The notes below the pieces were generated by a model that was not told where the DNA came from, did no database searches, and saw only the letters and a program-made list of their open reading frames with translations. From Ceratodon purpureus (Eukaryota > Streptophyta > Bryopsida > Pseudoditrichales > Ditrichaceae), in assembly GCA_014871385.1 (NCBI GenBank), contig CM026426.1:27153594-27217593 (forward strand): 64,000 bases of DNA. The letters run 5' to 3'. Below are positions 225 to 19,568 of the stretch, piece by piece (positions within the stretch are counted from its first letter, which is position 1; each line of letters starts with the position of its first letter). A program made the translations under genes and the position numbers.

Positions 225-968
225 TTATGCGGCAACCTCTAATTCGTTGGCAGTTTTTATGACCTTCTCCTTCACATCCAAACTCTTCCATTTGGTATAC
301 TTTTAGGTATATTCTACTATATTAAATTGGTTAATGATTTCATCTAAATTTTGAATAGTTAAACCAACTGATTTATATCCAAACCTTTTCTTGATTATCA
401 CTAAAGCTTCTTCATAGAGAAGGTTCTAAACATTCTGTTCTTCTACGCTTAGTTCCATAGCCGTCTCTTTCTTCTTCTTCTTCTTGTGTGTCTGGCATCT
501 TGTACTTTTTTCATGTATCGTTCATTTTGAATGCCGTTAAATGACCCCCTTCATCCTATTTGCCAAGTATGTCACAATGATATATTTTGAAATATAGAAA
601 ATAGAAACATAACTTTAATAAAAAGGTGATAATGAGATTTTTGTTAAATTCATAAATGGATCAAAAAGCTTACCTTTAGAGGATCTTGAAAGTCTGGATC
701 TCCTAATTGATGAAGGCGGTCTTCAACCTCTAAGTCAACTCCTTCTGCTGTCGTGATGCTTCTAATTCAAGAATCGGGTATTCATCCTCAATCTCTGCTC
801 CGTTTGTAGATCCAATCTATAGAATTTAATCACCAAAAGAGAAATAGTTAAATTTATAAAATAATTAGAATTTCAAACAATAATTAAATTTAAATAGAAT
901 TCATAAAGTTACATGCTTCTCTTGTTTGGTATTTTTTCCACTTTTAAACTGCTTTCCCTTATACTCAA
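225..968 (-). pseudogene. 3' exons of a CACTA-1 minus-strand gene, cut off from its 5' part by element N1
   Basis: Three exon-like blocks read on the minus strand: 913-968 (protein EYKGKQFKSGKNTKQEKH), 674-816 and 225-555. Donors are GTAACT after 913 and GTAAGC after 674; acceptors precede 816 and 555. All junctions agree in phase 0. The protein is charged, with an acidic run EEEEERDGYG followed by KRRRTE, and ends ANELEVAA then TAA at 225-227. Decay is clear: an in-frame TGA at 511-513, a frameshift near 410-420, a TAA at 303-305 and a frameshift inside 674-816. The missing 5' part lies at 19097-19568, on the far side of N1. Function is unknown. The position opposite a Tnp2 gene suggests the second gene of a CACTA element. 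Confidence 0.6.
965..968. other. Target-site duplication TCAA, left copy of N1
   Basis: TCAA directly precedes the left GGGGG terminus of N1 and recurs directly after its right terminus at 19097-19100. Keeping only one copy rejoins the interrupted host reading frame exactly. Confidence 0.75.
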
Positions 969-983
969 GGGGGGAAGCATCCT
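969..983 (+). repeat. Left terminal inverted repeat of N1
   Basis: GGGGGGAAGCATCCT. Pairs with the reverse complement of 19082-19096 with one mismatch, at base 6. A TAGGAAC word follows at about 996-1002. Confidence 0.75.
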
Positions 984-1742
984 AGGATGTCTAGGTAGGA
1001 ACGTCACACTGTCTTTTCCTCTGAATTAAAGATTTTTGACCTTGTGATTGGGTTTAGGGAAAATGATTCTTTTTAATTATTGTATTCCAGCAAGTTCGAG
1101 CACTCATTGTTTTTGCATAATATGAAGAGATAATTAGAAATGATTGGTGTTTTGTATTCCTATAAGTTCAGTTTGCTAAAAAATTCAAGAATGTCACAAG
1201 GAGAAGTCATACAGTCAGGAACTTGTTATAAGTACACGATGTGTTAGTTTTTGAGATGCATTGATTGGGTTGGGGCGTACAACGTTATGCTACTTGATTT
1301 TCTTATTTATTTTGCAATAGGCTAGAAACTAACTTTTGGGGGAATTTTTGAAGTGGCCGCATCCTAGAATTATGAGGGCGCTGGGAATTAGGAAATGAAA
1401 TTCGACGCTAATTTGTATTATTCCAGTTTTGGCACCTAGAATTCTCACTCCTCTAACGGCTTGCATTTGCTGATTCCCTGCGACCTATGTTCTCTAGGAC
1501 TTAACGACCATATAAAAACTGGAAATAGGAAAAGGAAACTGTTGAATTCCAGTAAAGTCGTTCATTCCTAGGACCCTTAGTTCCTTGGCCACTTTAAATC
1601 TGCGCCGTTAGATCGTAATCCAACTGCATGTGACAACACCACGTTTGGGATACCGTCGTCTCTCTCACCTGGGTTTCCCTTGCGACACTGTCCGCGGCTG
1701 CAAGACCTCCTGCGCAGTTGAGGTATAGGAAATTTTGTAAGT
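984..1742. other. N1 left subterminal region, no gene
   Basis: About 760 bp between the left TIR and P1. It has several CCTAG/AGGAA words. I see no reading frame I can support on either strand. Confidence 0.5.
1511..1518 (+). promoter_or_regulatory. Possible TATA box of P1
   Basis: TATAAAAA lies about 230 bp upstream of the P1 ATG. It is the best TATA-like word there, but the region is AT-rich and no start site is known. Confidence 0.3.
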
Positions 1743-2278
1743 ATGGGTTCACGAAGAAGTTCTTCAACTGCTTCACAAGCATTGATCACTGATTTTTTTC
1801 AACAAGAAAGAGTGACAGAACCAGAGGTTGATGAGTGGTTTTTCTATCAGACGTTGATTACTGACTTCTATAGGGAGAGGGAGGAAACAGTAGAAGTCGG
1901 TCAATCAGTTTCAGAGCATAGCTTCACTGATTCAGAGTTCCATAGCCTCCTGGACATAGAGCTGCAAACCCCAATCTCACAATTGAGTTTGAGATACTCA
2001 AATTGCACTCATGTTTCCAAAACCCCTGAAAATAGAGTTGCAAGACCCAACTTCGGTTTTGATTCGGAGGTTCAGTCACAGATGCGTAAATGCTTGTGGT
2101 GAGGTACGTGCCGAATGCCTCTTTTGGAATGCCTAATGGGTATCTGCCATATTTCATTTAATTTTGTTTTCAAAAATTTCGCAGTCTCTAATCATGACTT
2201 TCAATTTGCAGGTACAAGGTTCGGTACGAAATCATGAAGGAAGTATGCTTGCGGTGTGGTACGTATGAAGAAGTTTGA
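1743..2278 (+). CDS. N1 gene P1: small acidic two-exon protein, unknown function
   Basis: Exon 1 is 1743-2098 and exon 2 is 2212-2278, joined by a GTGAGG donor and a TTTGCAG acceptor. The split codon TG|G reads Trp, and the frame then continues to TGA at 2276-2278, giving about 139 residues. Without splicing the frame stops at once, which favours the intron. The protein begins MGSRRSSSTAS and carries an internal duplication, ALITDFFQQER and TLITDFYRERE about 24 residues apart. It ends with a CLRCG pair. No known domain is recognised. It lies just upstream of P2 on the same strand, so it may be an accessory N1 protein or a 5' part of P2. Confidence 0.5.
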
Positions 2279-2580
2279 AGTAGATTAGAGCTCATAAGCC
2301 AGGTATGTGATACATAGATAGAGCAGCCCTGTATAATCTGCGGCAGGTTGTCAAAACGTTAATGTGGAGTATACTGAGTGGCTGAGGGTAGATACTCCAT
2401 CGCTGACTCTCTTTAATAAACTAGCTACTGCATTCCAATCGCTGAAATCATTTCGTAGAGTTGGTCGACTTCCTGTGCAGCCATAAACTTTGAACAGGCC
2501 TTGTGGTTGTCATAGTTACGATTAAATTTCTTGCAAGTAGGATCGTTAGTTACTTCTGTTATTTTCTAACAGTATTTAGG

Positions 2581-5500
2581 ATGGCTCCCCGTAGAGATGA
2601 TAGACATCTTGGAGAAGGTAGCAGAGCCCGATTAGCTGTTGAAGAGAACTTGGTTTTGAAAAGGGAGAAAGTGGCTCTCAGACAGAAGAATTGCCGAGAG
2701 AGGAGGAAGGAGAGATTACAGAGGGTTTGTCAGGATAGTTTAGAGAGTGATGTTAGTGTGGTCAATATCCAAAGGTCGTCTACTCGTGCAGCAGAGGATT
2801 TAGCTTTGAGATGGTTTGATGAGACAAGTAGCAGAGGAATAGAGTGTCAACAAGCCTTGCTACCTAAGATTCTCAAGCATAGTATTTGGCGTAGTGTACT
2901 CCCTAATTACTCTAACATGGAGGTAGCTAACAGTGCAGTGGCAAATATATCTCAAGGATGGCAGTATGTTAAAGGTGGTCATTCGAAAGACCAACAACGA
3001 GCCAGGAATGTGATCATTTCCATGCTTCTAAGCTCCAGTGGTATTAGTGCTAGACAGACCAATTTGTTGACAAGAATTCACAGACGAAACTTGAAGTCTG
3101 GTTTGGTGAGGAGGCTAGCGTTAGAGTCAAAGTCTGATAAAAGCCTCTGGGCTGTTTGTGGACGGCAAAGGCGAGTTGATTGTCTACCTCCTCATGTAAC
3201 GAAGTTGGTAGAAGACTTCTGGACAGCAAACACCCGAATCAGTCCCAACAGAAAAGACGTCGCAAGAAAACGCATCGATGTAAAGGAGTGGATTTACCAC
3301 CCCACACATCACCTCACCGAATCTCAGATCAGTTAATTAAAGTCACTCTGCAATTAACGTCGATACACTGACTGGTCGATACAGTCTTTGTTTCATAGTC
3401 TCGGCCCTGAGCTATAATCTCGGAGTAGTACTCTCATGAAAAAAAAAAAGTATTATTCTAGGCTACTTCGCTTAGATAGGATTTCATTCCCTTAATGCCT
3501 AGTATTATCTCCAGATTTTTCCTCCAGATTTCAGTTCTTCAGTTCATTTTGATATTTCCCTGGGATAGTTGATTAACATCATATTTTTCAAGCAATTGAA
3601 GTAGAGTTAATGGTGAAGTACTTGGCTGTTCACCGTGCTCATCACGAGACGATGCAATGAGTGCAGCCACTATTATTTCCTCTCGGACATAATCTATAAA
3701 AACGCAGAGTAATGTCGATGAATTCTAGGAACGGTCCTGGTTAGGAATGAAAGGAACAGTAACTCAAGGAACAGTAATGCAAGGAACAGTAATGTTTAGT
3801 TAGGAATTGACGTCGTCATGTTTAGGAACGTTAATTCTAGGAACAGTTATGTATTCCTAGGAATTCAAGTCGTCATGTATTTTTTTATTTTATTTTTTAT
3901 TTTGCCGCAAAGGAGAAGTCTATTGCAGCAGAGCAGTTCATAAGGTCTCACCGGGCGAGACACAAGGCGGAGGTAGTCGTTAATTTTCCAGTTCCTAGAT
4001 TCATTCCATTTCTTTTCCTAACAAATCTTGTGGATTTTGCCTCCTCAGCTTTCCTTCTACACGCGATTCAGAGTAGCACATGGTGGCGTCGAAATTGGAG
4101 TCCAATCTTTTGAGTCACTGAAACCTTGGTTTGTGCGGAGGATGCTGGAGTTCAATAGCTGCTGCTGCAGATACCACGTGCAGATGGCTGAATTGAAGGA
4201 TGCACTAAACTTCATGCGCCGTGGAACAGTGCACAAAAATTGCTCCTGCTAGTGTGAGGTGTGCCGACCAGAGGGTGGAGAGGGTGTATGTAAAGCATCG
4301 GAGGTGACTTTTCACTCTGTTACGAGACTTTGTGAAGAAGTTTTATGCCCAAAGCCCGAAGAAGAAGAGTTCCATGCACTAAGTTGCATTCGGGGAGATT
4401 GTACGCTGTGTGGGGCTACGAAGTTGAAGATTTGCCCCAACGAACTCTCTGGATGTACGAATGCTCTTGTTTCCTGGAAGCTGTTTGAGATGGTATTTAT
4501 GGGGAGAGGAGAAGACGGAAATGACAGGCATGCACTTCGTCTGGAGCATAAGTTGACCCCACCGTGTGACTTGGTATCATCTGTGCGGTCCCACTTGGAA
4601 GAATTTTTGGTCCACAACTTTGAGGCAAAATGGCAGGATCGACAGTTCAAGGTATGCATGGGCAACTTAAGTCCTGATGCAATTGTTTCGGTTGTAGATT
4701 TCGCTGAAAACTATGCATTCAAGTGGCAGAATGAGGTTCAGTCCCAGCATTGATTCAGTTTTCAGGTATCAATACTGGTTCATATTACATTCCGAATTCA
4801 TCAGGAATGGGACGGGTTGGATCCTGAGAATAAGATACTCACGGAGTATCAATTTTATATAAGCTATGACAAGTCCCATGATAACAACTTTGTTCAATAC
4901 TGTTTTGGGCTTCATAGAGATTTTCTGAAGGAACAAGGGTTTCTTTTTCCTGTGGAGCACATAGTCTTCTCTGATGGCTGTGCCTCGCAGTTTAAGTGTG
5001 CGAAGTCACTGTATTTCGTTGCCAGGTATCCTTCTCTAACAATATCGGAAGAGTTACCCCTTGGCTGTGTGATGCAATGGAATCATTTTGGTACGGGTCA
5101 TGGTAAGGGCCAGTGGGATGGAGCAGGGGCTCACGTGAAGGAGGCCCTGCGTAGGGAGCAAGTGAAGCCTGATGGAGTGAGGCTACACAACTCATCTGAT
5201 GTGGTAACTTTCCTGCGTCAAGCAATGAACCGCGAATATGCTGGTTACCACAGTGCCCGAAGATCAGTACACCGGCATTTTTATGATGTGAAAGAGGCTG
5301 ACGTGAACCAATTCCAGGCTCCGAATGCTCGCACTGTAGAAGGTACTAGATCATTTCACGAGGTTAGAAGTGTTGGATTAGAGGAGACATCATTGCAGAC
5401 CCGGCGACTCTCTTGCTTTTGCAAGTTCTGTTTGGATGGTGGCGATGGACCATGTGATAGTGCGGGGTTTGTTGAACTGTTCACTCTAATCAGGCTAGAG

Positions 5501-5983
5501 CCCTGTGAGCCCCAAACACTAACAAGGCGTGATAGGGCGCGGCTTGATGCTCAGGAGACTAGACTCCATCCCCGCATGAGTACCAGAGAGTCACTTGCTG
5601 CCACGTTGGAGGTTGGTGATCACTTTGCGGTCTTAGCAGATGATGGAACCGGGTTTCCTGAATTCTGAATACTTCAGTGTCAAGAGCCCTTGCACGGCGT
5701 CGAAGAGGATAAGATGGAAGATACCTGGGGTCAGACAGTGTATCGTGGGGAGCAAATTGTGATTGGGACTTATTACAAGCAAAGGGGTAGCAGGAGATCA
5801 TCTTACATTAGGGAAGACCCATGCAGACCTGCTTTCATTTACTCTCACTTGGTAGTGGCCACGAAGTTTGACCTACCAGCAGCCACGCACCATCAGAAAG
5901 GAGGACGTGGAGGTACCCAGGTGTACAAACTCACCACCGAGGCCCAAGATCACATCCACTCTCAACTTTTAGTGGTTGACTAA
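2581..5983 (+). pseudogene. N1 gene P2: transposase candidate with SDG and HGKG...DGAG motifs, broken
   Basis: The first block, 2581-3336, starts MAPRRDDRHLGEG and is basic and helical, rich in RRKER-like runs. The second block reads in one frame from about 4040 to 5983, interrupted by TAG at 4250-4252, TGA at 4751-4753 and TGA at 5666-5668. Cysteine clusters (CEVCRPEGGEGVC, then CIRGDCTLCG) precede VVDFAEN. Next come the block HIVFSDGCASQFKC and then GTGHGKGQWDGAGAHVKEAL, and a later cluster CFCKFCLDGGDGPC. The spaced acidic motifs (DFAEN, SDGC, DGAG) suggest an RNase H-like DDE-type transposase; that is inference. The 3337-4040 gap may be an intron or damage and is unresolved. As the only transposase-like gene in N1, it is the likely source of its mobility. 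Confidence 0.6.
3718..3866. repeat. AGGAAC/TAGGAAT-rich block in N1
   Basis: Within 150 bp, AGGAACAGTAA recurs in tandem-like spacing, and TAGGAAC or TAGGAAT occurs repeatedly, together with two copies of GTCGTCATGT. The same word sits next to both N1 TIRs. Confidence 0.55.
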
Positions 5984-6763
5984 GGAGTTCATACACAGTA
6001 GTCTGGCCAGGAGATTCATTTCACGTTTATGCCCTCCAGTTATTTTAGTACCTTGCCATGATGCAATGGAAGTTTAGGTGGCTTAGATTTGCTTAAATTT
6101 TAGTTTGGAGTGGTTTGTTTTGGTCATATGCAAAAGTGCTGTCGATGTACAATCATAGTCATGGTAAATAATAATTTAAAAAAATGCATTTTGCTACTAT
6201 CAAGTCGTGTACAATTGCAGTGGATATCCAAACAGAATGAAATGACTTAAATGTTTTAGGGAATTGTTGTTTTTGAATAGAGTAGTGAAATTTGGAGAGC
6301 GCATACGAGGGACTAATTTCAATACCATATCCACTTGCGAGTGAACCATTAGAGCCAGCATTGCACACAATCAAAACACATCCAACTTTAATGAAGTACA
6401 TCCCCTCTCGATGAATTTATGCTCAATCAAATGAATATTGACAGTACCAGAAGAATGAATCAACTCCATTCCTATGAGTCCATTACATGATGATTTCCTT
6501 TGTACCAGGAAACATTTTTCCTTTGCAAATGTAAATACGGAGGTCTTTCGTTCTTAACCAATCTACTTTAAATCCTGTTTATCTCCCTTTATATGCATGC
6601 TTTTAATTATAGTTTTCTAGTATGTGAAGGGAAAGGATGTCATCTTTGTCAATATTTTGCTGGTTACATTAATCGAAAGAAATGAAAGTTGTTGGACAAT
6701 CAACTTATGGGTTCTTGGACTCGTTACGAAATTGATATAACATCCCCCTTTGAACATACAATT

Positions 6764-6987
6764 GTGTGAAATTGGTAAAAACTATACAAATTAGGAAAAT
6801 AGGAAATGTGTGTAAATGTGAAGAAGTCTCCAAAGTACGAAGACAGTTTGGTTAGGCGAAAAAAGGGGTACAAATGTGTGAAATTGGAAAAAAACTATAC
6901 AAATTAGGAAAATAGGAAATGTGTGTAAATGTTAAGAAGTCTCCAAATTACGAAAAGAGTTTGTTTAGGCGAAAAAGGGGGTACATT
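6764..6987. repeat. Two tandem copies of a 112-bp unit
   Basis: The unit begins GTGTGAAATTGG at 6764 and again at 6876. It ends in a GGCGAAAAA...GGGGTACA tail in both copies. Only a few substitutions separate the copies, so the duplication is fairly young. Confidence 0.75.
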
Positions 6988-7931
6988 TGATTTTAAAAAA
7001 TGTGACTTAACACAGACTTCAATCCGACTCCAATTTAGTTTTCTTTTGTGTCATGTTGGAACCGGTCCCCGCACAGTCTAGGGCGACGTACGTCACTCCA
7101 TTTGATTTCTCTCGTCCCAGCTCTGAACTAGGACTCGGTTGCCAACTGACGAGGGAGTAACTGTAATAACTCCAATATATTACCGCCGTTGGGTTACCTT
7201 GCATACATTATGGGATAAGTTCAATCTAAACTCGGTTTAAGGTAGGAGCGAAGAAAGTCAACAGTGTATTAAAATCTAGGTGTGTCGTAGAGTTCTCACT
7301 GCTCGTTGCAACGATGTGGTAATTCGATCTTGCCGAAACCTAGATTTACGTTCTGGGTGTCATCAAATTATCGACATTAGGTACATTTCGAGAATTCTTT
7401 GCTTATACCGAAATATAGACAGCTGTAGCAAAGATGATATACCTTTATCCTTTTATATATAATTACTTTTCAACTACAGATTCTTATTGAAGAATAAGGT
7501 AACTATTCAATGTAAAACCAGTGACCAATAGTTCACTCAGATTTGCTTCATGTGTTAATCCAATTTGTATTTATTTGTTTCATAGTATACAAAAAATGAC
7601 CTGAAGCAACTTAGGAATGACATAAGTGCCTACAACAGGATTATTTTGTTCCTTTTTTTGACTTCTCAATTCTCTAAGTTACAAATACCTGAAGTACATT
7701 CTAAGAAACAAATCTAGAATAATGTGACTGTAATTAAGGGCATATGTACCAATATAGTTTGATTACATATATGATTTCTATGAATTCCTAATTTTACAAT
7801 TTCTTACAGATTAGTATATCATCCTTGGCACTTGATACTATTTTTATATTATTTACCACTAATACTATTTGAATGGATATTCTAATTACTTGCCATTATA
7901 ATTTTCAAACCTCTAATCGATTTTCTTTTCT

Positions 7932-8350
7932 TAGATACCTCAGGGAATATGATTTCATCGTTACCACTATATATATTCTTATTTTATCGTCCACCTATAT
8001 AACTAAATAAGAAAAATATTCTATATTAAGCCCACCTAATTACCACATGTATTTTTATTTTTTTTATTTATTTCCATTTTTTTTAAATGCTACGGAGAGT
8101 ATGATGTCATCATTGTATATTTCTCTGAATACTTTGCGGGCTATGATGTCATCATCGGCGCTCTATATTCTTCTTCAGTTATCCACTTACATTATTATTT
8201 AAAGCAATATTCAATTTGAAGGAATATTCTATTTGGTAGCCAACCTAATTACCCCATGTGTTTTTATTTTTTTAATTTATTTCCATTTTTTTTAAATGCT
8301 ACGGAGAGTATGATGTCATCATTGTTTATTTCTCTGAATACTTTGGGGAG
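7932..8350. repeat. Two tandem copies of a degenerate 209-bp unit
   Basis: ACCTAATTACC at 8034 recurs at 8243, and AAATGCTACGGAGAGTATGA occurs in both copies with the same 209-bp offset. A TATGATNTCATCAT motif recurs about once every 100 bp. Confidence 0.65.
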
Positions 8351-8408
8351 TATAATTTTTACATGTCTCTTGTACGAAGTACTTCGAAAATTGGTGTCAT
8401 TCTTTGCG

Positions 8409-8409
<1 letters not shown>

Positions 8410-8453
<44 letters not shown>
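8410..8453. repeat. (TA)n microsatellite
   Basis: An uninterrupted run of TA dinucleotides of about 44 bp. Confidence 0.9.
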
Positions 8454-8457
<4 letters not shown>

Positions 8458-9077
8458 TTATTTTATTTTTGTGTGACTGATAGTTTATATTTCTTATTAA
8501 ATTAGTATTTTATATCTTGGCCAATCAAAATATTACAGCTATTTCTATGTTTTCTTAACACATGGGAATATTTATGTCTTCTCCTGAATTTCCCGCCATG
8601 TCGCCCCTCTTGTTAGGAAGTGCCACCTGTATCTCCCGCCTTCTCATGGGCCAATCAGGTGGTCCCACAGTGTTCCCGCGATTATTTTTCTAATACACGT
8701 GGCCCATCAGTCTCATTGTGATGTCTATATCCACATGATACCTGGAATATACTCATCCAGTACCATCCCTGTACTCACCCAACACCCAGGTAATACCCGG
8801 TTCGTCTTCCCCCCCAATTGGTTTCCCTGGATTCCATGCCATAGGGTTCTTCCAGTGGCCGTTCTCTCTCCTTAGGGTTTGTGTTGTTGTTTCTCGGTTT
8901 GTGTTGTTGGTTCTTGGCGCAGTAGATTCTCTAGGTGTTTTAGCAAATTGTGAGAGAGGGTTTTGTGGGTTTGTTGTGCAATCTGTTTGCTAGATTCTAA
9001 CTGTTTGTGTGAGTTTTCTAAGCTTTACGATTAGGCATCAATCCCCACAGAATAGATGTTTGTATGATTTTGGTATC

Positions 9078-12000
9078 ATGGGATCACTTCGGGGGCCACT
9101 ACCTCTGAATTCTCGTTGTCCGGTTGTTTTACAAACCTCCCAAGAGATTCCGCATGCCATGGTGGACAGGTATGTGGTAGCTGACTTTCCAAACTTGCAC
9201 ATTAATGTTGTACTTCAATTGCACTTGAATTGCTGGTTTCTAGGTTTCACTTCATTCCTAGGATATGGTTCTATTCATTGCACTTGGATGTTGGGCTAGA
9301 AGGAGGTACGGGTCAATGGACAGCCCAAGCCGTGGGAAAATTAATTTGAAGCGACACTTTGGGTGTTGGCATCCTTTATTCCATGGTCGTCTCTCTCTTT
9401 GGGTTCTTAGAAAGGAGCTACAGTTCTTGGCGACATTGTTGATTTTCTTGAGGTATGCTTGGTTTGTGTGCTCAGAGTTCTGTTCCTTCCAATTGATGCA
9501 CGTTAGTATTTTCAGAACCGTAAGCTCTGTGTACCATTCGAAGTGAAGATGTTTTGTTTTTTGGCCACGGTCCTTGTGTCTTTGTGCGTTCATTGTGAGA
9601 AATCACATACCTTTTTCCTTCACTGTCCTCGTGTGTAGGGTCTGGAGTCACAAACTTCTCCACTGTTCACCAAATCCTTCAGCTCCTAGTCACCAATCAG
9701 TTCAACGACTGCAAAAGGTGAGTTTCTAAGTGCACATTTTATGTTTTCCTTGGAATTTATGCACGCTGGAGTATAAGTCCTTTAGCTGTGTCCTTTCAAG
9801 CAGAGTGGATTGTGGAAATCTCTGTAGTTCCGGGTCTGATGTAATTTGTAGGAAATTAGTACATAAAGTAGGAGATAGGAATCTGCATCAGTAAACCAAT
9901 GTCGTGCACAGGAGCCATTCCTTGCTCCTGAAATGAATGTTAATAGGATTTTCCTTTTGTTCTCCAGGTTTTGCAGAGGTGTTCCTGTTCCGGTGTACTC
10001 GCTGGAAATGGTGTCCGGGTCGAACATTCTCCACAGCTTTCAAGGAGTATGTAGTAGTCTTCCTCCTTTTCAAGTTTTGTTCCTTCCTATCAAAGTCCTT
10101 ATTTCCATATCGATCTCCTGGCTTTCATTGTTTTTTTACTAGTTCCGGTTTTCTTGTTGGAGTCATTGGTTTCGTTACAGGAAGTCACATCCTGCCCACT
10201 TCCTACAGTTTGTTATTAGTCATGAGTTGCGGTCCTTTTTCCTTACCGTATCCTTTTCATACTTAGCGTTCCTTATTCCTTGGCTTGATTTTCACTTGTT
10301 TCCTTGAATGAGGTCTTACTTTCCGGTCTCCTTAGAGTTCGAGTGTAGGAGATGTTTACAGTTTCCTTAGTCCTTTTCCAGCACCCTAAATTCCTGTTCT
10401 AGATTACTTACCTCCTGTCACGAGATTCCATAGCCATTTTTTCCATGTTCCTTACTATCACAGTATTTCCTGGCTGTATCTAGTCTTTGCTTTCATGTCC
10501 TAGTTCCTGGTCTACTATTTTCTACCTAGGATCCAGTTCCATCTTACATGTCCTACTTTCTGGTTTAGAGTTTAGAGTATTTATGTAACTGTTCTTCTAG
10601 TTTATTTCGGAAACAAGTAGATGTCCATGCGAATGATATTATTGTTAGGATTGGATCTTCATGAGAATGTATCGGCCAGAGAGTATGGGTTTGGGCTACG
10701 TGTACTTATTCTTATTGTGTCTTAATGTTTGCAGACAACAGTGGTTTAGGGTGACATGAACTCCCAACCGGAACTGTAAGGTACGCATAAATTACCCACG
10801 CAAGTAAGATCAAAATATACGCCCATATTTTGTCTACCTAAACAATGATTAGGAGCAGTTTGTGAATACATAAATACATTGTTGGTTAAACTAGAATGTG
10901 TGGAAGGAATTTGGGTATAGTTTCTGACTTCCATTTCGGAGAGCCATTGCCACATGTCAATTCTGTACTGTATAAGGTTAATACTGTACAGTGTTCTTCT
11001 AAATTGTAGAATGTGCAGTGACCTAGATGAAAATATATATTTATGGAGGTCAATGTCCTTACTGGATGAAGTGTTTTCTTGTACTTAATACACTATTCGT
11101 TGCCTCAGATCTTTTCAGGGCTCCAAACAACATCACCATGAAGACTTTCTACTATCTCGAGAAGGGTTGGTTCAAACACGTCACCAAACTTCATGCAAGT
11201 GGACTCATCCCGGTAGCACATTGACAGAGCAACATGTTAGCAAGAAAGAATGCAAGCAGATGTTTCATTACGGTGGAGATCGATCCAACAACGGCTACAG
11301 ACTCAACCCTCACTGTACCTTTTTCAACGAAAGATTGCAATGGCTTTGGCTTCGGGTTCATCAAGTGGAGAAACCTGCGAATAACGATTTTGAATTTGCA
11401 TTTGCCCAGGCCTTGATTTATGAGTATAACACTGGTGAAGAAGTGGACTGGGCTGAACTCGCATTTCGTACCGTGACACGTTATTGCAAAACAAGGGGAA
11501 CAAAACAGGTCCATCCTCTTTGGGCTTGGGCCCATCCTAGTGTCACGGTTAATCTACAGACTGGTGTCCCCGTTGGAACCAATTACCACTTCCCCAACAC
11601 TCCAGGCTCCAGAATTATTCAGATGTCCTCTTATCCCCCCGGAGTAAATTCCTAACTCACCCTCCAATGTTTCGTTATATTTTTTTTGCCTTTAGATTCT
11701 TTGAAATAGATTGTAGAAATATAGAAGTTTATGCATGAATTATATTTTTCAAGATCTTAAGTACGAAACTAACTGAAGTACACATTTACTTTTCAGGATA
11801 TTTCCACGCCCAGCCCCATAACTCGTTCAACACACAGGGTAAAGCGAGAAGATCCTTCTTCAGCAGAAGACTATTCTGACAACGACAGTCACACGCCTAG
11901 TAAGAAGAAACGCAAAAGCAAGCAAAAGATTAAATACGAAACCCGGTTCAAAGATCTGGGCAGCCTTCTGTAGGGAATTTGGATTCAACATCTATGCATG

Positions 12001-12824
12001 TTACAATCTCAGCCCCAGATTCCCCTCCCAAGAGCGTGACAAAGGACACGGATCAGCTCACCACTGGCCCAACCGAAAGCAATGATCCGAGGTGAGTTTA
12101 GACCGATCTTGGTGATTTGTATTATTTGTTTCCTAAATTCCTTTGATTTCCAGTTTGTATTGCACTCTAATGTTTAATCTATTGTTTTCCAATACGTAGT
12201 TTATGTGCTCAAGTCTTTCTTCACAATGTACATTGCCAATGTTGGGTGTTGTGCAGGCCTGGAATTTCACGTGAAGAGACCTTTGAAGCTCCACTACCTC
12301 CAACAGTCGCGGCTGCCATCATGGAGTTCCAGAAGGAGATTCTAACAATGTGTGAAAAGGTTATTTAGGACCTTGAAATTCAAAGATCAGAGCTCCAAGT
12401 GAAGCTAAAAACTTTGGGCGATCAAGCATCTTTCGCAAACTGGACTTAGAGCGAGCTAAAAACTGAACTGGACCAAGCAAACCGGGCTCTGGTTGACAAA
12501 AACGATGATGCGACCCGAGGTGAAGTTCGGTATCTACATTCAGCTCTCAGATGTGCAGAGAGCAAGGTGGCAGTTGCTAAGGAGAAGGAGAAGGAAACAT
12601 CAGACACACTGACCGCTTTGTGTAAAAAAATTGAAGAAAAGCGCAAAGCTAACGGGATACTAAAAGAACACTTCCAGTTTTCTACAGGATCAGGTACGTA
12701 TATTTGGTACTGTTACTGAATTCTTTATTGCCATATGTTGCCTTGTATAAAACTGCCCATCTATTTACAAATCAGTAGTGATTTTTGACATTCTTTTGGT
12801 TTTGCAGTTCTTCCTCGAAGTTGA
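9078..12824 (+). pseudogene. N1 gene P3: multi-exon coiled-coil protein, decayed
   Basis: The start is ATG at 9078. Exon-like blocks are 9078-9169 (donor GTATGT), about 9302-9451, 9639-9717, 9968-10050, about 11110-11655, 11798-12092, about 12258-12691 and 12808-12824, ending in TGA at 12822-12824. The middle block carries EFAFAQALIYEYNTGEEVDW, which resembles a segment of P4. The 11.8-12.1 kb block is Ser/Pro-rich after a basic stretch SKKKRKSKQK. The last large block is a long charged helix, likely a coiled coil. In-frame TAG codons lie at 12366-12368 and 12447-12449; frameshifts are needed near 11210-11380 and 11930. Several exon edges in the first half are uncertain. Function unknown; probably an N1 accessory protein. 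Confidence 0.5.
10041..10560. repeat. TTCCT-rich intronic block of P3
   Basis: TTCCT, GTTCC and CCTAG words recur every 15-30 bp across the long intron between the 9968-10050 and about 11110 exons. It parallels the P4 intron when both are read on the coding strand. Confidence 0.5.
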
Positions 12825-14167
12825 AGATAAACATCAGTCACCGACATAGACAGATGGCTTGGCCAAGGATTTCACGAATTGTTACAAGTTCGTTTGTCGT
12901 GGAGGATGCGAGTCAAATTCTTTTTTAATTTAAAGACACAAGGGACCCTTTGTTTCTCCTTATGTTTTGTAAATTCTGAATTCTGAACTTGGCATGACAC
13001 GAGTATCCAGTACCTTTCTGTTTTGCTTTTTCGGAACCTTTTGGTGTAGTTCATAGGAAATAATACGTCAATCAGTGACAGCTACTGTGTGATTAACTTT
13101 TATCCTAGTAAAACTGAACATGATAAAAACATTCCAATTACAGTTGATGCTTATTATAAAAGCATAAATGTTTGGATATCTAATACTCTGGACAGTCATA
13201 GAGAATATTCTATTTGCTTTGTATGCGTTTACTTATTCATTGGAAATAGAGCTCACAATTCTAATCATGTGTAGTAGTATGTTGTGCCCTGATGTCTCAA
13301 TATGCTTGTATGGAACGTGCGTTTTTTTTTATAGTTGGGTATGAGATGATCATAGGCTTACGGTCCCCAATTGTACTTATGCTGATTGACTAGGAAAGTA
13401 GCATTGGACAGTCATTTCATTGATGAATCTGATTAAACAAATACACAGCACTCTAATATTATTAAAAATTTGTTTATTTGTGAAACCTGTTCTCGTGTTA
13501 TAGACTTGAAGTCGAAGGATTTTGTTTAAACTGTGACATTGCAATCTTGTACAATACAAACTCCTTTGCATTTGTATCATGCCCCAATTTTTTGAAGTTT
13601 AATTTCGCTAAAGAGATATGCTTTGTGACGAACAAAACATAAAGGCTGACTTGTATAAAGAACCATTGAAAACAAGAAGCGCTGCTACCCACGAATTCAG
13701 AAAACAATAGCACGCTCTTGGCCAAATACAATACAACAAAAAGACAGAGGTTCTAACTTAGCAAGGATCAGAGATAGTTTGCTACAAAATGTTAAGACTA
13801 GTTAGTAATATTGTCATATGAATTAGCAAAAAAAATTGTGTTGACAATTGTCAATCGCCAGTATGTTGTACGATTCGCACAAACAGATATGCATGAACTT
13901 GTATACATTATGAGGACACAACCAAGACACTCTCAGCTAAGGCTGGGTCTCACTAACCATACATTAATAAGTGTACACTCCAATAAATGGAACTGCCTCT
14001 TATTAGAAATGTGCACTGTACATGGCCTATTCATTTACAAAACATCAAACAAGTCTTTCAAACTTGAATGTTATTTCTAAACCAACTAAACTTGAATAGA
14101 AAAGAAACTCTGATTACACCACAAGTAGCTAAAGTCGAGCAATAAAACTGAAAAAAGGTTCTACTAC
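12825..14167. other. Convergent spacer between P3 and P4
   Basis: AT-rich DNA between the two convergent stop codons. I see no supported coding, and no clear terminator beyond scattered AATAAA-like words. Confidence 0.5.
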
Positions 14168-17100
14168 TCACTTTCGATAACTACTCCGTTTGCTTCTACC
14201 AGCCCTAGACTCTTTCGTGACCGACTGGGCTTGCTGGTCCGCCAAAAGTCTCAAAACCTCTTTCTTCTGGGATGTCACTAAGACATCGGTCTTTCCATCC
14301 TTTCGCAAATTCCTCTTCGGACAAATACTAGGCTCAGTCGGGTTTCATCGTTTTGAGATGTTTCTCGGTCGATCCTCCACATTGCTATTCTCTACCTTTT
14401 TAGTGAGGGCTGGACAATCACCTTCTCCATTCTCTACGTTCTCTAGAACTTCCTGAACCTCCATCCCCGCTGGACTGACTACAGTAGGTGTTGAGTCAAT
14501 TTCTAATCTATTGTCAGCCCTTGCAGAACTTTCTAAACCCAACACTTCTTCAGCTTCAGAAATTTCTCGAGCGTTACCCTCCACAAACTATACATTGTCC
14601 TCCCCAGGACTGTCATCGCCACAAGTGTCTTCAGTAATAGGGCCCTGTTCACAAACATTTCCTTGACTTGCAATACCAGCAGATAAGCGTCTCGGTTTGT
14701 TTAAAACAAACGTTGATGGCGTGCTCAATAGAGCCTCCTCGTCATCGGAGGATGATTCATCAGAACCCGACTCCAAATCCGGTTCTGTACCTCCAAAGAT
14801 CTCCATGCTCGCATTACTCTTTAGCCTAGTACCATTAGACCTACTAGGTGTAGCCTCGACGTCTGGTTCAACACTAGAATTAAAAGCAGAACCCAAGGCC
14901 AAAGGTTTCAGCTGACATCTCATTTGCGCATCTTTAGATCCCTCCACAGTGGTTGAGCACTCAGGACAGACCAGAATTTCATTTGCACATCTCTTGCAGA
15001 TTCCATCGTGCCCACAAGGCTGGTTCAAAAACAACAGTTTTTGGTCAGAGGACCACAAATTATTAGTATTTAAACTTCCTCATAAACAACACAATAATAC
15101 CACAACTAATAATATCGTAAATTGCAAAGTCGATGATAGTACCTCTAGAGCGAACATGACAAGGTCAGCTTGGTGGCAAATGGAGCATGCAACGACGTCT
15201 TCAGAATCTTGGGAATCATTTGGCGAAACAAGCGAATTGTTCTTCTGTCGAACGTCCCCCCAATCTCCATCAGTAGGTTGTTGTAGAGCTGGAGAAGCAG
15301 ATTGTATATCGGCATTGTGTCCTAGTGGATAGTCAGAATCCGCTGATTGAACATCTATAAAAATCAGAGTAAAGCAAGGCCCACATCAACCACTGTCAGT
15401 AAAGGGAATACGTGTTTCCTAGATTTAATTAATTCCTGGAATAGGAATCTAATATAAATATCTGTAAATGCAGTAAAAGAGATCCTACTCCTAGTACTTA
15501 TCCTTTTTTACCAGTAGATTTAACTCCTGGAAAGAAAGAGTCGTAGGAACGCTAGCATTTCGGACATAGGAACCAAAAGTCTTGCAGTAATGACAAGGAA
15601 AAATAGGAAACAAAAGAGTATTAATCTCTTGTTCCAAAAAAACTTTCCAAGCACAAAGGAAAAATAGCTAGGAAGGAAATTATGCTCCTGTGAATACTGT
15701 AGTACCCCGGGAGACAGTCCTTCCCTGAAAGGAACTGATCCCGAAGGAACTCATTTACAAAGGAAAGTCTGTGAAACATGAAATGCGAAAGGAAGTAATG
15801 GGAACAAGAGCATGGAATGATGCATTCGCTAGTACCACAGTTTCCCAAAAAGGAAGGACAAGAACATCACCTAGTACTAATGAAAGTAATCTAGGAAGGA
15901 AAGAAATGAACGTCTAAAGTATGTAACAAATTTCAGAGTGTGTTCATGAGGTTACCGATACTACTGGACAGGAACCCTGTTATTATCCTTGGAAATACAT
16001 CGTGATGCAAGTACTTAAGGAATTCTAGGAACATGGCATAGGAATCACTAGGTATTCCATTCCTTACTATCCATATAGAACGTGTCTGTTCTAAACATCC
16101 CATGCCTTAGTACAGTCAAAGAATTAACAGTAATGAATGATATGGAAATTAAAAAGAAAACTTTAGGAAAATATTTTGATGCAAAGGAGGCCTTTGGTTG
16201 CAGTAGAGAAGTCTTACCAGACATTGCAGCAACATTTGGGCTTCCAACTGCTGCATCGGTAGAAGAAGGGGGAGCCTTCTCTGGTTCCGGAAAGCCGAAC
16301 GATAGTCGCCACTGCGAATCAAATTCCTCGTTGCAAAAATTAGCAATACAGGTTCTAGACTTCGAACAAAGGGAACTAATGCAGAAAGGGTGGTAGCAGT
16401 GTCCACAAGAGGCAACAATGATGTCATTGCAATGATAATGCTCCCCACAAGCAGGACACTTTTCAATGTACACTATGTTGGTTTTCTCATGATCTTTGAG
16501 CCTCTCTATTGGTGTCGGCCTGAAACTATCCAGAATACCTGCCTTGAGCCTAGTAAGATACTCGCATACAGAGACTAGAAACTTCTTTGTACAAAGCTGG
16601 CTCTCATGTAAAGAATCATATCGCTTTTGAAAAACTTGCATTCCCTCGTTACACCTCTCATAGTCTGCTACAGTAACTTCTAATTTCAAACGTGTCTGTC
16701 TACTGTTCCTTTTCTCACAGAGAAGTTGTTGCTGCAAATCTGCGACTCTAGTTTGCAAATCCTCCTCACTTTCCTCTAAACCAGAAACAGATGATAAGTC
16801 TAAACCTTCACTCCCTAAGCAATTTGTCCACTGGTCGACATACTTAGAAGACTCCTCTAATGCCAACTTGACTCGCTGAACCTCGGCCAATGCCTCGTCA
16901 GACAGACTCTGCCTATCATCCCGCATTAAATTAGCACGCCTAAGCTCTAACTCCTTATCGTCCCTCTCTCGTTCTAAAACCTTCAACCTTTCTTTCCTTG
17001 ACAAGAAGTAATTTTGTTTGTCTACTAACAAGTGGTGTACCCTTGTGATAGTCTTCTCCACTGCATCACTGATGGCAGTTTGCTCTAAAGCAGTGAGTAA

Positions 17101-17778
17101 ACCGCTAGGAGAAACTCTGACACGACGTCTGGTAGAAGACGCAGACTCCATCCTCCCCTTCAAACCTAGAGGACGACCAACACGGGATGGCAATGGAACC
17201 GATGGACAGGGAGAAACACGAATAGGTGGAGGTTCTCTAAAGCCCGAATGGCTTCCTATACCAACATCAGTAGTCACGGCAGAGTTGGGCTCGGAATGTT
17301 CAGGAAGTGTTCCTAATCCATTTCCTGGGACTCCTACACTGGGGACTTGAGAGACCACAGTAAAATCCGGACCAAGTCTACCGTTCACTCTCTTCTGGGG
17401 AACACCGAGTTGTTGGGACCTGGCCTTTCTTGTTAAAATCAAATTCCGTCGCTTGGAACTTGCAGCAACGGCATAGGCTGCCCAGTTAACTTTGATTTTC
17501 TTTGACTCAGCAACGACACCCCTTGCGAATTCTAGAGAGATGGTGTCATTCATAGAACGAATGTCCTTTCGAAACACTCGGCGGTAAAGGTCACCAATCC
17601 ACCGCTGGGACTCGGTAGTCACACGAGGAGGTAAGATCTTTCACCCATTCTTATCGAACCGTGTGCCAAGAAACTGTGTGATTTCTTCTATAGTTACAAC
17701 ATTATCCAATGTCCTCACGATAAGTCCATCCCTACGGAGACCTTGCCGTTTAGTGAAGTACTCTAGGTCGTAAACAAC
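14168..17778 (-). pseudogene. N1 gene P4: coiled-coil protein with two zinc modules, one a RING finger; in-frame stops
   Basis: Three exons join in perfect phase: 16218-17778 (donor GTAAGA), 15143-15354 and 14168-15019. Exon A has an ITQFLGTRF segment, then LEFARGVVAE...VNWAAYA, a Pro/Arg linker, a long coiled coil (about 16640-17040) and a zinc module CPACGEH...CGHCYHPFC. The junction of exons B and C builds a C3HC4-type RING: CSIC, a 12-residue loop, then CGHDGICKRC and CPEC. An acidic Ser-rich tail and a basic end RSKRSSYRK follow. In-frame stops at 17641-17643 (TGA), 14588-14590 (TAG) and 14345-14347 (TGA) leave the frame open on both sides. RING fingers usually bind E2 enzymes in ubiquitin transfer, so an E3 ligase role is inferred only. 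5' exons lie further upstream. Confidence 0.7.
15412..16060. repeat. AGGAA-rich intron of P4
   Basis: The 863-bp intron 15355-16217 is packed with AGGAA, TAGGAAC and CCTAG words (for example near 15545, 15568 and 16026). On the P4 coding strand this reads TTCCT-rich, as in P3. Confidence 0.5.
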
Positions 17779-18945
17779 CTACAAAAAGGCACATTAAGCC
17801 AAGCAGTTAGCAAGAAGTATATAATGAAAACAAATCTGTGAACATAGTAACGAAGCTGACTAAGTCAAATAAATAGACATATCAGAGAAAATGCATGATT
17901 GTTACACGTCATTTTCCTAAACACATCGACAACAGAGAATATTTAAATTATACCGAGATTCCTTCCTTCGAATGACTGAGAATTCTAAAGACTACTGTGA
18001 GCCTTTCTAAGTGACCAGGAGTTGTAGAGAAAGGCTACTCTCTAAAACAGGTTTGCAACCCACTATACAGACCATGAAAAACACAAATTCGAATCAGTAC
18101 CCAGTACTTGGCACCAAAAAAAAATTCCACTTTCTCATTTACCTGTTGTTATTCATACAACGTGCATTGTTAAATCATTACTAAATCACTACAAAGGCTA
18201 TCCAGTGCAGGTATACAAGATAACTAGGGACGACAATACTGCTAAATTCATCTACATTTTGGGACAACCTAAACTGAAAAAGAAAACAACGACAGCTTGT
18301 GATACAACCCAATGCTAAATCACTGTGTACTACAAGGGGATCTTTAAAATGCGGAATTGAGTCCTTCCAGGCTCTCAAAAAGGAGTTCACATTTATGAAA
18401 TTGACCTTAAACATGTATCCACACTGAATTCTGGACCTAACCATTTTCCTTTGATTCTTAACCTATCAGCAGTATGAAAGAAAATGGGAGGTCTAAGCAA
18501 ACGAAAAAATTCAAGAACCCACTGGGTCGAAAAGGGTGAAAGTAGCAGGCATCGACAAGAAGACAAAGAAAAGACCCACTGCTTCCGCTAGGTTTTGTGA
18601 TTCGAGTTCTGAACTTAGAACCCAACAAGATATCGTAAGGAAAATTCTCAAGTCAGGTACTAAAAAGCACAAACAACAGAAGCAAAAGATTACCGAATCC
18701 ATTGCACATGAAACAACGCACAAAGCTTGGATATGCAACTTTGTGAATTGAAAAGAGAGTGAAACATTACCTCTTCGCTAGGGCTCTAATATCGAACGTG
18801 CTTTGAGTCGTTGCTACAAACATTGAGAGCCGTAACAAAAAGCCAGAGAACTGTGATAGAGAAGGAAAGAGTCGATGCGACAGCTACGGCAAAGGGAGCA
18901 AGCCAAACAATGAAGCACAGCTTGAAACCCTAGACATGCCTAAAC
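17779..18945 (-). other. Unresolved 5' part of P4: leader and first exon(s)
   Basis: A CTAGGGTTTCAAG leader-like stretch lies at about 18925-18940. A possible leader exon ends before GTAATG at about 18772. An ATG in good context at 18444 opens a frame of 87 codons (MVRSRIQCGYMFKV start). A strong donor CAACAG|GTAAAT sits at 18141-18142. I could not join these in phase to the exon starting at 17778, so the P4 start is open. Confidence 0.35.
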
Positions 18946-19081
18946 CGTTTCCCAAGGATAAAGTTGAGACTTCCTGGTTTCCTAGGTGGTGGACCAATAG
19001 AAAAATTATATTTTATTCTTACGTTTTTATCACCAGTACCCCCAATTTCCTTGGTTCCTTGGTTCCTAGTGGGCCACCTCA

Positions 19082-19096
19082 AGGATGCTTGCCCCC
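19082..19096 (-). repeat. Right terminal inverted repeat of N1
   Basis: Reads GGGGGCAAGCATCCT inward on the minus strand, one mismatch to the left TIR. A TAGGAAC word follows within about 35 bp. Confidence 0.75.
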
Positions 19097-19100
19097 TCAA
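19097..19100. other. Target-site duplication TCAA, right copy of N1
   Basis: Matches 965-968 and directly abuts the right TIR. Confidence 0.75.
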
Positions 19101-19568
19101 TATGTTGTAGGCAATAATTATACAATTCCTTGGGACGCCAGGGCATGAATACACCATGTTTAAAGTCCAGTGATTCCATCTTCATTAAATTATTTACACA
19201 CATGTCTTTGAGATCATCAAGGAATTTCTCCCTGCTCCTTTCATCATTAGGATTTATAAACCCTTTTTCCTTCAACCAAACCTTTGCCTTCTCCTGATTG
19301 TTCATATACTTGTGGTATTCGTCCTTATAATAAGCCAATAGAAACTTTCTACCATACAGTTTTCCTTCCTCTTTCAAGGCACAAGGATAATGTATAAATA
19401 TTTGTTGATAAGAAGGAATAGGTTTTTTCTCCTTCCCGTCCAACAATCAATTTCTTCTAGTTCTTCACAACCAAGCCCTATATCCGATTCTTCACTGGAA
19501 GAAGCATTCAATTGAAATGGCAGCCGGAAAGTTCCACACATTGGACAAAATCGATAATTTTCATCCAT
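19101..19568 (-). pseudogene. 5' part of the CACTA-1 minus-strand gene, interrupted by N1
   Basis: It reads from MDENYRFCPMCGTFRLPFQ (a CPMC pair) through an acidic stretch. After a 1-nt frameshift near 19445 it continues KPIPSYQQIFIHYPCALK and a charged helical region to ELYNYCLQHI. There N1 enters and adds only about eleven foreign residues before a stop. Rejoined with 968-913, the frame continues directly as EYKGKQFKSG. Function unknown. It lies divergent to the Tnp2 pseudogene starting at 20806, the same layout as the minus and plus genes of the second CACTA element. Confidence 0.6.

Follow-up and report, generated by a model that had tools for sequence, protein, structure and literature searches.

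Organization of the N1 locus

We analyzed a stretch of 64,000 nucleotides (hereafter the window) from the moss Ceratodon purpureus, corresponding to C6:27153594-27217593, where C6 denotes the contig of the window (CM026426.1; 110.5 Mb, 30.5% of the bases) in the searched assembly of 362.5 Mb and 151 contigs. Positions 969-19096 of the window (18,128 bp) were confirmed to constitute a real DNA transposon with terminal inverted repeats (TIRs), here called N1. Between its ends lie the four gene-like units that an initial annotation, made from the sequence alone, had placed there, namely a transposase gene, a coiled-coil gene and two genes for RING-like proteins, RING1 and RING2, and the last three of these form a cargo that is rarely seen in DNA transposons. 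N1 represents a recently active family, but the copy in the window is itself broken.

The TIRs are 15 bp long and begin with GGGGG, as had been proposed, with 14 of the 15 bases being identical between the two ends in the window copy and all 15 in copy C2. Both ends were read for 15 end pairs, and the repeat is GGGGG(C/G)AAGCATCC. The exact 15-mer GGGGGCAAGCATCCT occurs 44 times genome-wide, as against 0 occurrences of a reversed control; 42 of these fall inside scored left or right end matches of the N1 family, and the other two (C2:25321100 and C6:6796627) have a RING2 homologue within about 2 kb. The initial annotation had pointed to a search for further copies with the same ends as a check on its reading, and such copies were recovered with both end regions: the best 40 of 57 candidates scored for the left end matched at 100-88% identity and the best 40 of 42 for the right end at 100-66%, the self-match included in each case. 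Leaving the self-match aside, the left alignments start at window positions 962-973 and the right ones stop at 19092-19104. As the locus and end-match counts reported here cover top-scored candidates, they are lower bounds on a possibly biased sample, and the loci are not independent of each other.

Comparing by eye the flanks of both ends, we found a matching 4-bp target site duplication (TSD) in 13 of the 15 end pairs. These duplications are varied, and comprise TCAA, CCAT, TACA, TGCG, CCCA, AGGC, GCGA, TAAG, TGTT, CGAC, CATT, TGAA and GTAA, of which the CGAC pair (copy C5) requires one substitution in the left end. For the window copy the TCAA duplication claimed earlier is borne out by the agreement of both flanks and by paralogous empty sites. 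A query consisting of the joined 600-bp flanks of this copy with one TCAA crosses the junction at five other loci, three of them near-complete (89-93%) and two partial (83-84%), and all five contain a single TCAA by sequence, from which we conclude that the insertion of N1 was real and precise. The initial reading of a large, complex TIR transposon is thus one on which the copies, the ends and the empty sites agree. The sequence that hosts the element (window 669-968 and 19101-19400) is a repeat with at least five other copies that are 83-93% identical. A CACTA-like subterminal repeat array was considered as a further feature of N1, and no long array is present; short motifs such as CCTAGGA appear to be commoner near the ends, with 5 of the 11 occurrences in copy C2 falling in its outer 1.4 kb and 6 in the remaining 17.7 kb.

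Coding constraint on the genes of N1

Constraint on the open reading frames (ORFs) was gauged between copies C2 and C3, from the ratio of nonsynonymous to synonymous rates (dN/dS) and from the number of differences at codon positions 1, 2 and 3 (Table 1). Against taking a low dN/dS as a mark of coding stand the antisense frames opposite RING1 and RING2, which also gave low values of 0.17, 0.19, 0.22 and 0.45; of eight frames opposite the transposase two yielded 0.19 and 0.23 and the other six 1.3-5.0. Because antisense frames score low too, dN/dS was set aside as the sole coding test and codon positions were counted instead, with the proviso that a shadow frame can share an excess at one position. 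Coding constraint is clear for the transposase, RING1, RING2 and ORF209, with which the coding sequence of the coiled-coil gene begins, and weak for the other ORFs.

Table 1. Features of the N1 copy in the window, with codon-position counts given as differences at positions 1/2/3 (aa, amino acids)
Feature	Coordinates	Strand	Evidence
Left TSD, TCAA	965..968	.	Single TCAA in five empty sites
Left TIR, GGGGGGAAGCATCCT (GGGGGCAAGCATCCT in copy C2)	969..983	+	End reads; genome-wide 15-mer count
First ORF (126 aa between stops), possibly a 5' exon	1743..2102	+	dN/dS 0.22; positions 16/6/23, p 0.008 (weak)
280-aa ORF (open between stops from 2494, with an ATG at 2581)	2581..3336	+	dN/dS 0.17; positions 15/17/47, p 5e-6
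AGGAACAGTAATG-type short tandem repeats	3746..3878	.	Between the 280-aa ORF and the transposase main exon
Transposase main exon	4050..5983	+	dN/dS 0.08; positions 50/32/200, p 5e-40
113-bp unit, 2 copies	6757..6985	.	Repeat analysis
ORF209, initial coding portion of the coiled-coil gene	11089..11655	+	dN 0.19, dS saturated; positions 43/25/105, p 5e-14
Coiled-coil-like ORFs (approximate limits), probably further exons of the ORF209 gene	11800..12830	+	dN/dS 0.21 and 0.36; p 0.04 and 0.02 (weak)
RING1 gene	14171..15385	-	dN/dS 0.09, 0.23 and 0.37 (three pieces)
RING2 gene	16048..17778	-	dN/dS 0.11; positions 84/63/220, p 2e-26
Right TIR, GGGGGCAAGCATCCT on the minus strand	19082..19096	-	End matches; 15-mer count
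Right TSD, TCAA	19097..19100	.	Equals the left flank

Copies, age and genomic distribution

Aligning copies and examining empty sites had been put forward as a further check, and the alignment assembled here comprises ten full copies of 18.3-19.2 kb together with the window copy of 18.1 kb. They separate into a first group of seven copies with 99.0-99.9% mutual identity, a second group formed by copy C4 and the window copy (97% mutual, about 89% to the seven), and a third group formed by copies C3 and C1 (98.7% mutual, about 70% to all others). Within this set the copies C2, C12 and C11 are 99.7-99.9% identical, which points to recent copying. Divergence is uneven along the element: in 250-bp steps the identity between C2 and C3 is mostly 74-92% within the first 6 kb, where two steps fall to 64%; it amounts to 43-71% between 8.5 and 14 kb and to 66-88% over the final 2.9 kb, so that N1 diverges as a mosaic.

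Loci were tabulated with a single row each: of 132 rows for the transposase 124 were retained, of 83 for RING2 65, and ORF209 contributed 72 close rows and 42 weak ones; the rows set aside are further fragments of the same loci, and the ORF209 counts, being taken from the matches listed, are minima. We divided the transposase loci into a close family of 56 at 64% identity or more and a distant set of 68 at 39-46%. Both are enriched on C6, which with 30.5% of the bases holds 44 of the 56 close loci (binomial p 1.6e-13) and 42 of the 68 distant ones (p 1.1e-7), as well as 28 of the 40 left and 29 of the 40 right end matches scored. According to a review, C. purpureus has a 360-Mb genome in which the U and V chromosomes each exceed 100 Mb and make up about 30% of the genome (PMC8000587). 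The C6 contig is presumably a sex chromosome and non-recombining, in which case the N1 family would be concentrated on such a chromosome.

The transposase

The main exon is interrupted in the window copy by three premature stops (TAG at 4250-4252, TGA at 4751-4753 and TGA at 5666-5668), which, like those of RING1 and RING2 described below, add to what the initial annotation had observed. In nine of the ten sister copies it is open as a 653-aa (or 648-aa) frame, and in the remaining one, copy C5, the match is partial and lies in a 354-aa frame. With the window copy counted in, the 23 best-scoring matches to the transposase include 21 that lie in frames of at least 558 aa, one of these with a TAA inside the match. 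The motifs VVDFAEN, SDGCASQFK and HGKGQWDGAGAHVK, to which attention had been drawn earlier, are present in the window transposase. An alignment of 12 proteins from several lineages revealed three aspartates, D226, D318 and D366 (numbering of protein L037), that are invariant in 12/12 with the spacing D-82/91-D-41/47-D; the same proteins share cysteine clusters ahead of the first aspartate (D1) and a CxCxxC motif past the third (D3). These aspartates are putatively catalytic, and judged by its motifs the protein would adopt an RNase-H fold; the SDGCxxQFK and HGKGxxDGAGAxxK motifs are reminiscent of integrase-type motifs.

The 280-aa ORF upstream is very probably the N-terminal exon of the transposase gene. 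In the distant relative L097, 31 aa match the C-terminus of this ORF at 48% identity (2236-2328, E 9e-5) and the transposase match follows directly downstream, from about 2326-2405, with e-values of up to 4e-34. In addition, an in-frame, splice-acceptor-like CAG lies ahead of the conserved part in all 12 transposases.

The RING and coiled-coil genes

RING2 displays a conserved N-terminal domain, a coiled coil and C-terminal RING-like cysteines. Its window copy has one premature stop near the N-terminus (17641-17643) and is open from 17640 to 16048 (530 aa). RING1 forms a 405-aa frame in copy C4 and has three stops in the window copy. Its codon-position counts are 50/50/101 (p 2e-6) and 18/11/38 (p 1.5e-4) for two pieces, with a weak signal from a 97-aa piece (p 0.095). 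The RING1 fragment of the window matched the zf-C3HC4_3 profile at E 9.9e-6 and 25.7 bits, just under the Pfam cut-off of 27, and the longer frame matched it more weakly (E 0.022). Profile comparisons with hhalign gave a match between ORF209 and the N-terminal domain of RING2 at E 3.6e-4 and a probability of 37 if a protein from contig C9 (see below) was included, and at E 0.13 without it, so that a homology of the two is only suggestive.

One pair of ends encloses ORF209 and RING2 in 11/11 copies, and RING1 in 9/11 as judged by its motif, with the other two (C3 and C1) being recovered by search. The arrangement recurs at the close transposase loci: RING2 was found within 30 kb at 38 of 56, in each of the 38 downstream and on the opposite strand to the transposase, and ORF209 at 45 of 56, in all 45 downstream and on the same strand. 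At least 72 ORF209 loci were detected, and around 17 of them, several with equal scores and 73% identity, neither a scored transposase of N1 type nor a scored RING2 occurs within 30 kb (C3:14743906, C8:8558464, C8:8769191, C10:7775416, C11:10989293, C12:14454231 and others); these lone loci perhaps belong to another mobile family that shares ORF209. At C12:15987116 a transposase with 41% identity has a RING1-like match (38%) some 6 kb upstream of it, in an arrangement unlike that of N1.

Relatives beyond the close family

Ten further transposases of several lineages, at 38-42% identity, were recovered from the same genome, where two queries gave 1166 and 1518 first-look candidates. One family with a transposase that is 42-44% identical, represented at C9:10404962, has a RING2-like gene about 5 kb away on the opposite strand; it is 27% identical over 110 aa (E 7.5e-4), and its match of 16.2 bits compares with 5.5 for the best of 2000 shuffles. 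The initial annotation had raised the occurrence of transposase relatives with quite different termini as a point that would speak against it. The close family shares the N1 ends, and to this extent the prediction stood; the family at 42-44% could be read at one end, which is GGG(G)TGTAAGC, i.e. GGG(G)TGTAAGCAGGC, in 5/5 copies. A 12-mer search for its second end returned 24 matches versus 18 in the control. The C9 element end is adjoined by a 1124-aa reverse-transcriptase-like ORF (L087:4727-8098) with a FADD motif that we read as being of LINE type.

Two profile scans of viral contigs retrieved no relatives of the N1 transposase, and the 15 matches to a degenerate HGKGxxDG(A/V)G pattern in these contigs look like chance frames. 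A first scan of bacterial and archaeal contigs was likewise negative, and a second found one relative, L097 (contig CAKZGI010000474.1), which is decayed by frameshifts and stops. This contig is binned as a Trichormus cyanobacterium; it is presumably plant DNA, perhaps of Azolla, that contaminates the bin. The initial annotation had not been able to place the element in a named superfamily, and searches with the transposase produced no significant match in Pfam or NCBIfam, nor were any obtained with PHROGs, PDB sequences, phages or plasmids. No published description of the N1 family turned up among the titles and abstract openings searched, which cover a minority of subscription papers and do not include the article on the Ceratodon genome.

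Proposed mode of transposition and role of the cargo

The ends are exact and repeated, the duplications are of 4 bp, insertion is precise, copying is recent, the main genes are constrained and the linked genes keep a fixed orientation. In the mechanism that we propose, the 280-aa and 653-aa ORFs would be joined into one RNase-H-type transposase with three catalytic aspartates (DDD) of roughly 900 aa, which would bind the 15-bp G-rich inverted repeats and excise the element in a cut-and-paste manner; its joining to a target staggered by 4 bp would then generate the 4-bp duplication. RING1, RING2 and the coiled-coil gene would belong to the mobile unit, and by analogy with the accessory proteins of other plant transposons their products would most likely be helpers in transposition or anti-silencing, the RING proteins serving as ubiquitin ligases for proteins of the host or the element. 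We rate N1 as a very large, multi-gene, DDD-type transposon with 4-bp duplications and RING-like cargo, and hold it to be highly probable that the window contains a decayed copy from a young family of such very large TIR elements with a DDD transposase and helper cargo genes.

Several observations weigh against this interpretation. Two of the 15 end pairs (C6:78.0M and C6:108.09M) are without a duplication; the left flank of the latter (C6:108088362) is common to it and C11:512964 over the 213 bp compared, with apparent 1-bp indels only, and the right flanks differ, so that this copy may have recombined or been duplicated. No scored RING2 lies within 30 kb in 18 of the 56 close loci and no scored ORF209 in 11, and conversely 26 of the 65 RING2 loci are without a scored transposase within that distance, some of them on account of insertions (e.g. 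C2:4.31M). Near the 68 distant transposases, a scored RING2 was met twice (never in the expected orientation) and ORF209 three times (once in the expected orientation); given that the best candidates alone were scored this scarcity is no proof of absence, and with so few cargo matches near transposases at 39-46% identity the cargo may not be a general one. The family at 42-44% is known from one end, and the pattern GGGGTGTAAGCAGGC matched one end type only (3/3). RING-type profiles matched RING2 weakly, at E 0.14-1.3 and below an unrelated family at 0.064, and in a comparison with PDB a RING protein at E 0.14 ranked below an unrelated chain at 0.05; in view of this weak profile support, the RING2 finger is mainly a reading of the cysteine and histidine spacing. 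The RNase-H fold, similarly, is a reading of motifs alone, and Sola, Lanisha and the other superfamilies considered below were compared with N1 by description and not by reference transposase sequence.

It could be argued that the additional genes are chance-captured passengers, or separate elements nested in N1, rather than parts of one mobile unit. The lone ORF209 loci (17/72) mean that ORF209 also occurs elsewhere, and the coiled-coil ORFs give a weak coding signal, both of which would suit such a scenario. However, the enclosure of ORF209, RING2 and RING1 by one pair of ends throughout the 11 copies, the purifying selection and the fixed gene orientation make it very improbable in our estimate. 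It is unusual for a DNA transposon of 18-19 kb to have several genes maintained by purifying selection. A standing cargo of RING-like, i.e. ubiquitin-ligase-like, genes would allow a conflict between transposon and host over protein turnover to be put to the test. Given near-identical copies whose frames are open, the N1 family may still move.

Comparison with known superfamilies

The features stated in the publications cited below make it most probable, at about an even chance, that N1 is of Sola type or a sister of Sola, a judgment that draws on published descriptions rather than sequence. Sola elements possess a DDD transposase, 4-bp duplications and TIRs of 11-1124 bp, exceed 15 kb in some cases and are present in moss (PMC10741241), and N1 resembles them in its duplication, its three putatively catalytic aspartates, a short TIR within that range, its length of more than 15 kb and its moss host. 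Sola2 has an 888-aa transposase and AT-rich AWWT duplications (PMC3627910), unlike N1, in which none of the 13 readable duplications is AWWT; RING cargo goes unmentioned in the extracts of both descriptions. It is possible, though we lean against it, that N1 instead represents a not-yet-described DDD superfamily characterized by G-run ends, duplications of 4 bp and a cargo of RING genes. The lack of a significant match across the profile, protein, phage and plasmid libraries, the ten further proteins of several lineages and the numerous first-look candidates in the same genome, and the absence of a describing paper among the titles and abstract openings would be in keeping with this; yet the libraries searched include no eukaryotic transposon library, the literature searched takes in a minority of subscription papers and not the article on the Ceratodon genome, and the stated features of Sola fit N1. 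Still more doubtful is the fuller scenario in which N1 would typify a lineage of superfamily rank that has so far escaped description. Its members would be DDD transposons of seedless plants that have G-run ends and 4-bp duplications, carry their own RING proteins as would-be ubiquitin ligases aiding transposition or defeating silencing, and have expanded on a moss sex chromosome.

N1 might also have been catalogued already under Lanisha, which Maumus, McDaniel and Carey put forward in 2020 as a superfamily of cut-and-paste elements (reference 35 of PMC12730594). Carey and Maumus are also among the authors of the Ceratodon genome preprint, the host is probably the same, and transposases of the N1 group are abundant, with an enrichment on C6. 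However, Lanisha and CMCT are characterized by a C(2)C and an H(3-4)H motif between the second D and the last E and are placed with EnSpm-like elements, with CMCT showing duplications of 2-5 bp and mostly 5'-CA..TG-3' ends (PMC12730594). In 8 of our 12 transposases this motif is absent after the second aspartate, in the other four it lies far C-terminal, past D3 and without conserved histidines, and the ends of N1 are GGGGGC..GCCCCC (GGGGG..CCCCC in short) and not CA..TG, all of which renders membership in Lanisha unlikely.

Kolobok elements have a 4-bp TTAA duplication and ends that begin with purines (PMC9587614). N1 is like both Kolobok and piggyBac in duplicating 4 bp, but an assignment to either was rejected since both duplicate TTAA, which is found in none of the 13 N1 duplications. 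A TTAA duplication is also typical of Sola3, from which N1 differs in the same way. With respect to its cargo, N1 recalls the VANDAL-type Mutator elements, which encode an anti-silencing protein, and the CACTA elements with TnpA and TnpD, in which accessory proteins aid transposition or escape from silencing. The likeness extends to the possession of accessory proteins, whereas the transposase, the duplication and the ends differ, and the putative helpers of N1 are RING-like.

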